Positions 60,648 through 64,000 of a stretch of 64,000 nucleotides of DNA are shown in pieces. The stretch's first letter is position 1; every line of letters begins with the position of its first letter. Below the pieces are notes generated by a model. It was given only the letters and a program-made list of their open reading frames with translations, was not told where the DNA came from and ran no database searches. The position numbers were made by a program, and so were the translations under genes. The stretch is from a virus, in the IMG/VR virus record IMGVR_UViG_3300025652_000059, positions 1-64,000 of that record. One strand, written 5' to 3'.

Positions 60648-61583
60648 CTAGTCTTCAGCTAGACTTTTGAAAAAGTCAAGAGAGTCGTCCGTTGACTCTG
60701 AAGAGGTTGAGGATGAGGATGGGGCTTCAGCCTGAGCAACAGCAGGTGCCGCTCGCTCTTTAAAGTTTGGCTGAAACGCCATCCCCGCATTGCTGTCCTC
60801 GGCGGTCGCTACGGGTGCGTGTGAACCACCATCAAGTTGTAGAACTTTGTGCAGTTTTGCTTTAAGTTCTCCATAAGACTTGAAGTTTTTAGGATCAACA
60901 ATTTCGGCTAGGGAGTGCTGTTTGTTCCATACTGCTTCCATATCTTCATCAGACAGTGCTTCACCATCAGTGTTAGCAATTGGAGCAGGAGTAGCAAACT
61001 CAGATTTGTCGTAGTTGCGATAGCCTTCTACTTGACGAATCTTTAGTTTGAAGTCAGCGCCTTCCCAGAAATCGAATGGATTGATTGGATCTTCATCAGC
61101 GAACTGAGGATTCATAGCATCGTTCAGTTTGTCGAAGATTTTCTTACCAAATTTATACAAATAAACTTGACCTTCACGAGAAGGATTTGATGGATCAGAT
61201 ACGACCATTACATTAGCTACATAGCTAAGACGGCGTTTCTGTTTACGAGCAATCTCTTTGTCTTCATCATGACCAGAGTTCCACAACTGAGAGTTATACT
61301 CAGATACTGGATCGTCTTGACTTAGAGTTGTTAGAGACTTCTCGATGTACCAACCACCTGGCCCTTGAAAGCCATGATCCCAATAGCGAACGAAAGGCAT
61401 ATCTTCGTTCTCAGAAGCGGGTAGGAATCGAAGTACAGCGTAGCCATTGCCAGCTTTATCGACTTCTGGTTTCCAGTAGTTGTCGTCACCTTTGGACATT
61501 TTTTGATTTGACATTGATTGTAGTTGAGAGTTCAACTTATCAAAAGAGTTCGTACGGTTTTTCTTTAATGATGCAAAAGACAT
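60648..61583 (-). CDS. 32: Single-stranded DNA-binding protein gp32
   Basis: A 311-residue protein (T4 gp32 has 301). Conserved text: VLRFLPASENEDMPFVRYWDHGFQGPGGWYIEKSL, RRLSYVANVMVVSDPSNPSREGQVYLYKFGKKIFDKLNDAM, NPFDFWEGADFKLKIRQVEGYRNYDKSEF, and an acidic, Ser-rich C-tail (SSSSTSSESTDDSLDFFKSLAED). The N-terminus SLKKNRTNSFDKL fits the cooperativity segment. The T4 zinc ligands are reduced to one His (WDHGF); the three Cys are absent. It coats ssDNA in replication and recombination. A strong sigma-70 promoter and a possible late promoter precede it, and a terminator follows. Confidence 0.97.
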   Translation of the reverse strand: MSFASLKKNRTNSFDKLNSQLQSMSNQKMSKGDDNYWKPEVDKAGNGYAVLRFLPASENEDMPFVRYWDHGFQGPGGWYIEKSLTTLSQDDPVSEYNSQLWNSGHDEDKEIARKQKRRLSYVANVMVVSDPSNPSREGQVYLYKFGKKIFDKLNDAMNPQFADEDPINPFDFWEGADFKLKIRQVEGYRNYDKSEFATPAPIANTDGEALSDEDMEAVWNKQHSLAEIVDPKNFKSYGELKAKLHKVLQLDGGSHAPVATAEDSNAGMAFQPNFKERAAPAVAQAEAPSSSSTSSESTDDSLDFFKSLAED

Positions 61584-61641: not shown

Positions 61642-61670
61642 ATTATACTAGGTGTTGCTGTATTTGTCAA
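61642..61670 (-). promoter_or_regulatory. Consensus sigma-70 promoter for gp32
   Basis: On the minus strand TTGACA (61670-61665), 17-base spacer, TATAAT (61647-61642). The -10 is 59 bases before the gp32 start, and the promoter overlaps the gp59 stop. The leader carries one copy of an 11-base direct repeat (AATACAACGCA at 61611-61601); the other copy (61644-61634) overlaps the -10 and start site. Host RNA polymerase should read it early. Confidence 0.8.
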
Positions 61671-62247
61671 GAACTATTTTCTTCATTTTCACTTTATCAT
61701 AATCTAAAAAAGGTTTATAGTTGTTAACAGTCTTATTTATATCAGGGAAAACTATGGTGTCACGAATAGTCTTCTCCCAATACTTAAAGCATCCAGTGAG
61801 TTCATCAATGATAATCAATGTCTCAATGCATACCCTTCTTCTGTTGAACAGAGATAGGAGTTTTGGATATTCTCCATCTTCGACAACAATGTTGGCATTG
61901 AAGTCATCGTCTAACTCATCTAAATCATTCTTAAATGTGTAAGTCAATGACTGTTGCCTTTTTGACCACTCAGTATAGACTTCATCTGCTTCATGACTGT
62001 CTATTAAGTTGCCAATCCAGAGATCAGGCTTCTTTAATATATTCGCTAGAATATAATCTTTAGCATCTTTCCTCTTAGATAACTTATAGAAAAAGAACTT
62101 ATCTTTTCTATTTTCAAATCCATCGACAGTAAGTCTCATCTTACCGCCATACTTCACAAAGTCATAAGTTGATGTGAAATGCTTCTTGATTGCCATGTAG
62201 TAACTATAGAGTTCGAACGCATCTCTAGTAGAATACATTGAACTCAT
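61648..62247 (-). CDS. 59: Helicase loader gp59
   Basis: A 199-residue protein (T4 gp59 has 217). The segments ELYSYYMAIKKHFTSTYDFVKYGGKMRL and DGFENRKDKFFFYKLSKRKDAKDYILANIL, then PDLWIGNLID, match T4 gp59 (LMIKQHMNGKYDVIKYNWCMRV..., RRDKYFFQKLSEK, DAWIGDISD). It loads gp41 helicase on gp32-coated forks. The start overlaps the gp33 stop (ATGA). Position next to gp32 and gp33 is as in T4. Confidence 0.92.
   Translation of the reverse strand: MSSMYSTRDAFELYSYYMAIKKHFTSTYDFVKYGGKMRLTVDGFENRKDKFFFYKLSKRKDAKDYILANILKKPDLWIGNLIDSHEADEVYTEWSKRQQSLTYTFKNDLDELDDDFNANIVVEDGEYPKLLSLFNRRRVCIETLIIIDELTGCFKYWEKTIRDTIVFPDINKTVNNYKPFLDYDKVKMKKIVLDKYSNT
61734..61741 (-). promoter_or_regulatory. Possible late promoter for gp32 inside gp59
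   Basis: TATAAATA on the minus strand within the gp59 coding region, about 150 bases before gp32. T4 also makes late gene 32 transcripts from promoters inside gene 59. The sequence is exact but inside a gene, so confidence is moderate. Confidence 0.45.
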
Positions 62248-62495
62248 ACAGGTAATCTCACAAGTTTCTCGACCATGTTTAACTCTTCAGCTTCTTTGTA
62301 AATGTTTGCTTTTAGAAGAGGCGACTTACGAATAATCTCACCAACAACTTCGATTTCAAGACCATTCTTCTCAGCGTACTCGACTACTGCGTCAATATAG
62401 GGCACACCTGCGTCAATGTGTCTCTTTATATCTAGCATTATACGCTCAGAGTTTAGTCTGTTAAGTAATTTAAGGTCACCCTTCTTATCACCCAT
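62244..62495 (-). CDS. 33: Late transcription co-activator gp33
   Basis: An 83-residue protein (T4 gp33 has 112). The pattern GVPYIDAVVEYAEKNGLEIEVVGEIIRKSPLLKANIYKEAEELNM (about residues 30-74) is the helical gp33 core of marine T4-like phages. gp33 bridges RNA polymerase and the gp45 clamp at late promoters, which fits the TATAAATA boxes of this window. It overlaps gp59 by four bases (ATGA) and the upstream gene by eight. Confidence 0.88.
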   Translation of the reverse strand: MGDKKGDLKLLNRLNSERIMLDIKRHIDAGVPYIDAVVEYAEKNGLEIEVVGEIIRKSPLLKANIYKEAEELNMVEKLVRLPV

Positions 62496-62697
62496 TTAGA
62501 ACCTTTATCCCTAACGCCCAGTTCTCTGCGGCATCTTCAGCCCACTGTAGAGACTTACGCTCATGTAGTTCAGTTGACACTAGTGTGCCACGAGGATCGT
62601 AGTACTCAATTCTCCAACCATTATCAGCTTCAAAGATAAGTGCTTGAGCGTTGCCCGCTTCTTCAACCTTGATTCTTCTACTAACTAGTTTAGACAT
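62488..62697 (-). CDS. Unknown small protein in gp33 operon
   Basis: A 69-residue protein: IKVEEAGNAQALIFEADNGWRIEYYDPRGTLVSTELHERKSLQWAEDAAENWALGI seen over residues 9-64. It has a small beta-plus-helix look (strands around WRIEYYDP, then the AEDAAENWALGI helix). Similar short proteins are common beside gp33 in marine T4-like phages, but function is unknown. It overlaps gp33 and is four bases after dsbA. Confidence 0.8.
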   Translation of the reverse strand: MSKLVSRRIKVEEAGNAQALIFEADNGWRIEYYDPRGTLVSTELHERKSLQWAEDAAENWALGIKVLNG

Positions 62698-62701
62698 AAT
62701 A

Positions 62702-62971
62702 CTATCCTATAGTTTCGAGTAATGCTTCGATGTCTTCGATCTCAGAGATCAACTCAGACACATTTTCTTTATGATAAATTTTAGCCATTTTAGCTAGGTA
62801 CTTTTTAGGGATATCAACATCATCAGAGAGTGAGACGATAGCTTCTTTAATGAAGTCTCGTTCAGCATCGATGCGAGTATAAGATGCACTGATCTCATTC
62901 ATAGCGCCTTTGATGCGTTGCTTATCAGAGTCTGACGATGGTAGAATAATAGAGTTTGTTGGTGTTGTCAT
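62702..62971 (-). CDS. dsbA: Double-stranded DNA-binding protein DsbA
   Basis: An 89-residue protein, the same length as T4 DsbA. The C-terminal half (VDIPKKYLAKMAKIYHKENVSELISEIEDIEALLETI, about residues 52-88) parallels T4 (VDGKMFNRLLALYHKDNRDVFEAETEEVVELYDTV). T4 DsbA binds dsDNA near late promoters and enhances late transcription. It sits directly upstream of the gp33 run as in T4. A GGAAC ribosome-binding site precedes the ATG. Confidence 0.9.
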   Translation of the reverse strand: MTTPTNSIILPSSDSDKQRIKGAMNEISASYTRIDAERDFIKEAIVSLSDDVDIPKKYLAKMAKIYHKENVSELISEIEDIEALLETIG

Positions 62972-62994
62972 AGTATAAGTTCCATATCAATTAA

Positions 62995-63123
62995 AAGAAG
63001 GGGCCCGTTTTGAGTAACACTTATCGTTGGAATCTACCAACTGTGTCGTCTCTTCGCAATCCATGCTAACTAGCATCCATGCCTGTGGTGGGCCAAGCCA
63101 CACTCCTCTTTAGTTATTGACAT
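62995..63123 (-). other. Hairpin-rich leader between tmRNA and dsbA
   Basis: No gene of normal size is present in 62972-63190. Three perfect hairpins follow one another: TGTGG/CCACA (63084-63088 with 63098-63102), ATGCT/AGCAT (63063-63067 with 63072-63076), and GTTGG/CCAAC (63026-63030 with 63037-63041). GAGT/ACTC could close them as a junction (63102-63105 with 63013-63016). A 17-codon frame, MSITKEECGLAHHRHGC, lies at 63070-63123 on the minus strand after AAAGGA. It may be an RNA regulatory element for dsbA or part of the tmRNA 3' trailer. Confidence 0.4.
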
Positions 63124-63189
63124 TTTCGAATTTCCTTTTTCGGGTATGTCGTACCTCTCTTCTACACATACTGTTATCATACTTTGTAT

Positions 63190-63478
63190 ATGAGAAGTCG
63201 TGTGGACAACTTCTGTTGCTAGGCGTGTCCAGACCCCGGTAGATTATGCCGCTAGGGCAAAATCACCATGTGCAAAATTATTATCGTTTGCGATTATTTT
63301 ATTAGCTTCTTTAGTCGGGAACTCCCAACCCTTACAGTCTTTAGCATTGACTGATTCTCCACATAACCTCAACCGTCTGTCGAATCCAGAGCGTCCCCAT
63401 CATAAAAACACTAAACAATGCTCTTATGGTGGAGACGAGGGGAGTCGAACCCCTGTCCAAACAAATCTACTTTATGCT
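63190..63478 (-). ncRNA. ssrA: Circularly permuted two-piece tmRNA (ssrA)
   Basis: Minus strand, 5' to 3'. Acceptor piece: T-arm with AGGGG stem, TTCGACT loop and CCCCT (63454-63438), then CGTCTCC and encoded ACCA, ending at 63427. A 28-base intervening segment follows (63426-63399). The coding piece begins GGGGACG (63398-63392) and continues TCTGGATTCGAC as in tmRNA 5' ends. GGGGACG pairs with CGTCTCC to give a 7-pair acceptor stem with G3-U70, the alanine identity pair. Upstream of the tag is TAATCGCAAACGA, like other tmRNAs. The tag is at 63291-63244. The 3' boundary (near 63190) is approximate. Permutation is typical of alphaproteobacteria and some cyanobacteria. Confidence 0.93.
63244..63291 (-). 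other. tmRNA tag reading frame
   Basis: The resume codon is GCA at 63291-63289. The frame reads ANDNNFAHGDFALAA and ends at TAA (63246-63244). ANDN at the start is the alphaproteobacterial tag style, and ALAA at the end is the usual degron read by ClpXP-type proteases. It tags proteins from stalled ribosomes for removal. Confidence 0.93.
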
Positions 63479-63709
63479 TCACTGAATACTTTTATTGACT
63501 TTTTTGTACAGAACTTCGTGCTGTTCTCGTAACCAATCGTCATACACGCAATCACTAAATTCATCTTCAGTCATTGCGGTTAAACTGTCAATATACATAT
63601 TAAACGAAAGAAATGATCCACTCATGCCAGTTGCTATATCCATAGGCTTTGCAATTTGTTCCAGTGCATCAATTCTACTTTTAAGTTCACTCAATACTTC
63701 ACTTCTCAT
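63479..63709 (-). CDS. Unknown small protein upstream of tmRNA
   Basis: A 76-residue protein, MRSEVLSELKSRIDALEQIAKPMDIATGMSG then NMYIDSLTAMTEDEFSDCVYDDWLREQHEVLYKK. It has a helical N-terminus and an acidic middle, and no membrane span. Its stop codon lies directly before the tmRNA acceptor piece, so gene and RNA share one transcript from the late promoter 23 bases upstream of the start. Function unknown. Confidence 0.75.
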   Translation of the reverse strand: MRSEVLSELKSRIDALEQIAKPMDIATGMSGSFLSFNMYIDSLTAMTEDEFSDCVYDDWLREQHEVLYKKVNKSIQ

Positions 63710-63730: not shown

Positions 63731-64000
63731 TTATTTATACTCTTGCTCTTTTCTCAACTTCAGCAACCATGAGTCGCCTCTACGTTCAGCATCATAAAAG
63801 ACTGCCGCTGTAAATGTAGCCATGAACAACAATACAAAGTGAATAACAAGGCTTATGCCCATATAGATTACGCTACCAATGTAGATTCCAAACGTGATTG
63901 ACCACATCCAAGCTAGAACAGTCATTATCCACATTCGTGATAATGGATCTGGGATATGTCTTAGCGGGTTCTTGCTATGGTCAAACAGCCAATTATAAAA
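63731..64000 (-). CDS. Membrane protein, N-terminus cut by window edge
   Basis: The minus-strand frame is open from 64000 to the stop at 63731. At least 22 residues (WLFDHSKNPLRHIPDPLSR among them) precede the first in-window Met at 63934, and they look coding, so the true start is probably beyond the window. Two hydrophobic spans follow (MTVLAWMWSITFGIYIGSV and ISLVIHFVLLFMATFTAAVF), then a charged end (DAERRGDSWLLKLRKEQEYK). It resembles small membrane proteins of marine T4-like phages; function unknown. Confidence 0.75.
   Translation of the reverse strand, partial: FYNWLFDHSKNPLRHIPDPLSRMWIMTVLAWMWSITFGIYIGSVIYMGISLVIHFVLLFMATFTAAVFYDAERRGDSWLLKLRKEQEYK
63732..63739 (-). promoter_or_regulatory. 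T4-type late promoter for small gene and tmRNA
   Basis: TATAAATA on the minus strand, 23 bases before the 76-residue gene and overlapping the 3' end of the membrane protein gene. With no other promoter seen before the tmRNA, it suggests that the tmRNA is made late in infection. Confidence 0.7.

Follow-up and report, generated by a model that had tools for sequence, protein, structure and literature searches.

A phage-encoded, circularly permuted two-piece tmRNA gene at a conserved place in T4-like phages

The tmRNA locus and its neighbours

The window, that is, the whole stretch of 64,000 nucleotides analysed here, corresponds to bases 1-64000 of a viral record of 65,496 bases. It encodes T4-like portal, sheath, terminase, head closure and neck proteins together with gp32, gp59 and gp33, and it contains no tRNA genes. 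The single RNA gene that ARAGORN found in it is a permuted tmRNA at 63153-63519 on the minus strand, with the tag ANDNNFAHGDFALAA followed by a stop. In Rfam, RF04321 (tmRNA_permuted) matched 63488-63244(-) with 106.2 bits (cut-off 47, E 1.1e-19) and was covered end to end (model positions 1-213), and RF01850 (beta_tmRNA) matched 63524-63191(-) with E 1.5e-24. The score of the latter, 86.2 bits, lies barely above its cut-off of 84, which counts against reading the element as a functional beta-tmRNA. Within the clan of alpha, beta, cyano and standard models, the top model for the window tmRNA was beta_tmRNA, and not one of the alpha and cyano models with which the sequence-only reading had proposed to search; alpha_tmRNA (RF01849) came first only for phages Melnitz and Mosig.

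The permuted order can be read directly in the sequence, where the 3' tRNA-like part comes first, followed by a spacer and then by the 5' part. ARAGORN, Rfam and direct reading together confirmed what the sequence-only reading had claimed, a phage-encoded, circularly permuted two-piece tmRNA. That reading had the location right at 63190-63478, and the element reaches slightly further on both sides, from about 63489 to about 63164 on the minus strand. The 28-base spacer, the cut points at 63427 and 63398, the G3-U70 pair and the tag ANDNNFAHGDFALAA with its stop are all present as it had described them. The parts of the tmRNA and the surrounding genes are:

63732-63739, minus strand: T4-type late promoter motif TATAAATA, 30 bases ahead of the ORF 63479-63709 and upstream of the tmRNA
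63479-63709, minus strand: 76-aa ORF between the late promoter motif and the tmRNA
63427-63489, minus strand: acceptor (tRNA-like 3') piece, from sequence, Rfam and covariation of helices 1-5, with the cross-piece helix strands ATTC (63487-63484) and CATAA read from sequence, the T-arm AGGGG-TTCGACT-CCCCT, the acceptor strand CGTCTCC, A73 and an encoded CCA ending at 63427
63399-63426, minus strand: 28-base spacer between the pieces, hairpin-capable
63164-63398, minus strand: mRNA-like piece, from sequence, Rfam and covariation, with the acceptor strand GGGGACG from 63398, the D-loop region CTCTGGATTCGACA, cross-piece helix strands, PK1 region, tag, PK2, 3' hairpin and a probable 3' end near 63164
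63244-63291, minus strand: tag frame ANDNNFAHGDFALAA plus TAA, resume codon GCA (ARAGORN)
63194-63231, minus strand: H-type pseudoknot after the tag, from sequence (helices 6-7 of the covariation count), with stem 1 TGGACA (63231-63226)/TGTCCA (63208-63203) and stem 2 GAAGT (63213-63209)/ACTTC (63198-63194)
62702-62971, minus strand: DsbA-like transcriptional regulator, downstream of the tmRNA
62488-62697, minus strand: 69-aa ORF, downstream of the tmRNA
62244-62495, minus strand: gp33-like late-transcription coactivator, downstream of the tmRNA
61648-62247: gp59, beyond the gp33-like gene
60648-61583: gp32, following gp59

The 7-bp acceptor stem spans both pieces and has G-U (G3-U70) as its third pair, the T-arm and CCA are present, and the tag frame has a GCA resume codon, a hydrophobic end and a stop codon. 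The setting had been described as a structural and late region. Structural genes do lie on the same contig, but the direct neighbours form the gp33-gp59-gp32 control and replication cluster.

The last codons of the 76-aa ORF overlap the tmRNA 5' helix strand, i.e., the first bases of the acceptor piece. This ORF matched no PHROG or Pfam family; its relatives were found only within the same phage (the window and contig L023), and it is absent from the sister phages. Further upstream, at about 64498-65190 of the contig, lies a ferredoxin-dependent bilin reductase (L002:4499-5191(-); Pfam Fe_bilin_red, 4e-19). Its closest counterpart is that of Pelagibacter phage Mosig (48%), which makes it PcyX-like.

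The interval that separates the tmRNA from the DsbA-like gene contains a stretch of about 170 bases (window 62985-63150(-)) that is 68-86% identical over four lineages, its counterparts being L008:2483-2662, L003:1513-1700 and L182:930-1125. It folds into a long closed structure in which 6 pairs changed on both sides among the four sequences, and a possible ORF of 17-19 codons lies within it (in the window, MSITKEECGLAHHRHGC). A permissive Rfam search gave no match for it even at E 1. Its location roughly matches that of the glutamine riboswitch in Melnitz, and it may represent a new leader RNA.

Conservation of structure and place

Covariation was counted over 39 pairs in 13 aligned phage tmRNAs. 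Paired bases occupied 80.6% of cells, and double-sided changes were seen in 19 pairs (65 cells). The covariation score was 0.361 compared with 0.179 for shuffled alignments, none of 500 shuffles reached it, and it fell to 0.07-0.15 when the partner strand was slid by 1-3 columns. Chance origin of the structure is excluded by the covariation and the slid controls. The acceptor and T stems were paired in 100% of cells, including compensated changes (e.g., A-U to G-C in the acceptor stem), the helices joining the two pieces covaried too, and G3-U70, a U-G third pair, was kept in all 13 tmRNAs. This strong helix covariation across the phage relatives shows that the tmRNA is a maintained RNA. Its folding z-score is -3.75, and RNAalifold recovered the same core unaided. 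Two regions speak against a functional tmRNA. The pseudoknot helices 6-7 (PK2) were paired in 48-56% of cells, being clear in the window phage and its near sisters and pairing poorly and inconsistently in distant phages, and the PK1 region contains an insertion of about 20 bases and is just 38-41% identical to the sisters.

We found the tmRNA at the same place in seven other IMG/VR contigs, with a near-identical tag, making four lineages with the window. Members of the group are L023 (the same phage), L008/L021, L003 and L182-L184, and the tmRNA is present in 8/8 related contigs examined at this place. The last three had been recruited via the conserved downstream stretch and not via the tmRNA, yet they also carry it. 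All group contigs share the order 99-aa membrane protein, tmRNA, DsbA-like regulator, ORF, gp33, gp59, gp32, with bilin reductase and thioredoxin-like genes further upstream of the membrane protein. Sister loci that reached a clan cut-off had beta_tmRNA as their best model, like the window.

Identity to L008, L003 and L182, respectively, is 100, 98 and 94% for the tag DNA, 89, 87 and 78% for the acceptor piece (78-89% for the acceptor and mRNA 5' parts) and 53, 21 and 29% for the spacer, whose length over the four lineages is 28 (window), 30, 12 and about 86 bases. The tags across the group are ANDNNFAHGDFALAA, ANDDNFAHGDFALAA and ANDDNFAHGDYALAA. A diverged spacer with a constant tag is the pattern predicted by selection on a processed two-piece RNA.

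At wider range, a scan of viral contigs returned 38 with a beta-like permuted tmRNA pattern; the scan pattern fits beta-like D-loops only, and the alpha-type phage tmRNAs of Melnitz and Mosig fall outside this number. Rhizobium phage RHph_I1_18 gave a match (60 bits). No permuted tmRNA was found in the nearest isolates by terminase (phiM12, phiN3, XG4, S-CREM1) or in P-SSM7, and its absence from phiM12 and phiN3 indicates that the tmRNA is dispensable over longer distances.

Computation thus establishes a gene in permuted order, with covarying helices, G3-U70, an encoded CCA and an open tag frame ending in ALAA, at a conserved place. Judged from these sequence features, the phage very probably encodes a functional tmRNA in two pieces, circularly permuted and of the beta (RF01850) type. 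This adds a further group of T4-like phages in which the two-piece tmRNA gene is conserved and structured.

Promoters, tag and proposed function

The motif TATAAATA occurs in 14 copies on the contig, 8 of which lie 28-66 bases before gene starts, several of them structural (P 1.5e-11). Among 28 distinct phage tmRNA upstream sequences, the exact motif stands 72-76 bases before the end of CTCCACC in 7 (L003, L008, L015, L019, L025, L182 and Melnitz), where shuffles led us to expect 0.13 exact copies, and NATAAATA stands at the same spacing in 13. None of 76 bacterial tmRNA genes has the late motif at that spacing. With T4 late promoter geometry, transcripts would begin at roughly the first base of the acceptor piece that pairs. 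The motif ahead of the tmRNA suggests late production of the rescue RNA; a role at that stage of infection had been proposed in the sequence-only reading and gains backing from the placement of these predicted late promoters. In the window phage, the 76-aa ORF separates TATAAATA (63739-63732) from the tmRNA, so its primary 5' end would differ from that of the sisters, which goes against the explanation we favour.

Sigma-70 promoters are found here as well. A perfect TTGACA-17-TATAAT with TG ahead lies at about 64095-64067 of the contig, 576 bases before the gene, and the same is seen in L003. In L019 and Melnitz (and L103), a sigma-70-like promoter (TTGACA..TATAAT/TATAAA) overlaps or touches the late motif before the tmRNA, an arrangement that would permit early and late expression from one site. 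Expression of the Melnitz tmRNA was inferred to be early from a sigma-70 promoter (PMC9004378), and the consulted portion of that report does not mention a late motif for the tmRNA. The upstream sigma-70 promoters make early expression likely too, and they are what favours the view, offered for Melnitz in PMC9004378, that the tmRNA is expressed mainly early and helps break down host proteins. This view concerns timing alone and is compatible with our main explanation. We consider it possible but rather unlikely, as TATAAATA stands at fixed spacing in seven phage genes, most of them without a strong -35 box there, and precedes structural genes on this contig. Both promoter types may be active.

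The tag of 15 aa ends in ALAA and is longer than most tags in the sampled bacteria. Its form, ..[HY][GERK][DE][FY]ALAA, was found in no bacterial genome among 84,980 species, a scan that covered genes with GCAAACGAY and not all codings; in the comparison with host ssrA tags that the sequence-only reading had suggested, the phage tag differs from most in length and, among genes so coded, from all in form. Several distinct groups of phage tmRNAs have tags that are longer and carry an acidic residue close to the end, unlike most sampled host tags (YYGDYALAA, YYEDFALAA, FYGEDRLAA and FAHGDFALAA in L004, L005, L040, L017, L028, L035, L006 and the window with its relatives; VPVDYALAA in Melnitz).

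Such a tag would also suit a decoy. The phage tmRNA would then compete for the SmpB and AlaRS of the host and block or redirect its trans-translation, and FAHGD before FALAA would alter the fate of tagged proteins. Besides the length and form of the tag, this idea draws on the tag-less tmRNA of phage DS6A, which inhibits the endogenous tmRNA when expressed in E. coli (PMC11915505). We regard it as improbable here, because the tag frame with its stop and ALAA end, the acceptor and the CCA are all intact, and because the part conserved best is the tag, which a decoy would not need. The long tag may still alter the handling of tagged chains.

Although ssrA often serves as an integration site and fragments of it occur in prophages (PMC9004378), we rejected as very improbable, on covariation and conservation, the idea that a recently captured remnant of host ssrA, or a scar left by a temperate element at its attachment site, persists here without a function in the phage: the gene is complete, its pairs change on both sides across phages, the same locus recurs in four diverged phage lineages with the spacer changed and the tag constant, the phage sequences cluster together apart from the sampled host genes, no integrase is among the families found for the scanned proteins, and the gene set is T4-like.

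Our preferred reading is that the phage supplies an RNA for ordinary trans-translation, which would be made at least partly late. SmpB is absent from the contig and from 11 phage genome records, including those of Melnitz and Mosig, so the phage RNA must use the SmpB of the host, together with its AlaRS, EF-Tu and proteases. Gene, structure and conservation are computed results, whereas timing, processing, charging and tagging are steps that we infer. Transcription would occur late, from the gp55/gp33-type late promoter (TATAAATA), where transcripts of the sister phages are expected to start near the first base of the acceptor piece that pairs; read-through from a sigma-70 promoter further upstream would probably contribute too. 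The spacer would be cut out at 63427/63398 by the host's RNase P and tRNA 3' processing, host AlaRS would charge the RNA, and host SmpB and EF-Tu would deliver it to ribosomes stalled on truncated mRNAs. Translation would resume at GCA, and the nascent chain would gain the phage tag ending in ALAA and go to host ClpXP-type proteases. Ribosomes would thereby be kept recycling while mRNA is cleaved and host genes no longer supply tmRNA. The fuller proposal, that this T4-like phage family runs its own trans-translation as a late function, with a gp55/gp33 promoter, a start at the acceptor-piece 5' end, a long phage tag and host SmpB, strikes us as an evenly balanced call. The late-promoter motif makes the timing of phage tmRNA action experimentally addressable in the isolated phage Melnitz.

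Lineage, host and comparison with known two-piece tmRNAs

In a tree of 81 tmRNA genes (230 columns, moderate support, cyanobacterial rows left out), the window and its sisters fell on the beta side and Melnitz and Mosig on the opposite side of a split with support 87/82, and the phage tmRNAs clustered by themselves, apart from the sampled host genes.

The tmRNA had been taken to point to the host clade. The markers conflict: the tmRNA is of the beta type, the terminase and portal are closest to Sinorhizobium phages (58-59%), the bilin reductase to that of a SAR11 phage and gp32 to cyanophages. Melnitz has an alpha-type tmRNA and an OM43 host, which its authors assign to the Gammaproteobacteria together with the former betas. 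In BUCT628, a beta-type tmRNA goes with an Acinetobacter host. These disagreements show that tmRNA type and host need not match. We therefore rejected a host assignment from the tmRNA, and caution that a phage host should not be read off tmRNA type.

A permuted tmRNA had also been called unusual for a T4-like phage, which does not hold, as Mosig and Melnitz each carry such a gene at this position. PMC9004378 (2022) counts 133 unique tmRNAs across 402 phages, including 53 that are two-piece (50 being marine or aquatic), and describes the Melnitz tmRNA as two-piece; 79 unique phage tmRNA sequences were listed, and RF04321 defined, in PMC11915505. The two-piece tmRNA gene is thus a kind already known in phages, and ours is a further case. 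Although of a different tmRNA lineage, it sits at the genome position where the SAR11 and OM43 phages carry theirs.

Like the window phage, Methylophilales phage Melnitz (MZ577097) is T4-like and has a permuted two-piece tmRNA directly upstream of gp33-gp59-gp32, with TATAAATA 76 bases ahead of the acceptor end. It differs in its alpha_tmRNA type, its tag ANDNYVPVDYALAA, a long spacer and a glutamine riboswitch behind the tmRNA, whereas the window has the beta type, a 28-base spacer and no riboswitch found by Rfam. Pelagibacter phage Mosig (MT647606, SAR11 host) likewise has a permuted tmRNA directly upstream of a gp33-like gene, gp59 and gp32, but it is of the alpha_tmRNA type, no TATAAATA was found ahead of it, and its ARAGORN tag is GEDNFALAA.

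Permuted tmRNAs were seen unannotated in the records OK149171 (Alcaligenes phage vB_Af_QDWS595), MZ593728 (Acinetobacter phage BUCT628) and OR257569 (Ruegeria phage RpAliso), L185-L187 in our set. Those of BUCT628 and vB_Af_QDWS595 are, like ours, phage-encoded and of the beta_tmRNA type (94 bits each), but these phages are not T4-like and the tags are ANDNVFGAKTLAA and ANDNVYAAAA, respectively. The betaproteobacterial two-piece tmRNA (RF01850; Rhodocyclales and other betas) shares with the window the permuted order, a hairpin in the inter-piece spacer, the TGG.TTCGAC D-loop and the acceptor architecture, whereas its tags have 10 aa, mostly ANDE[QR]FA[IVL]AA, its PK regions differ, and the phage version scores low in bits.
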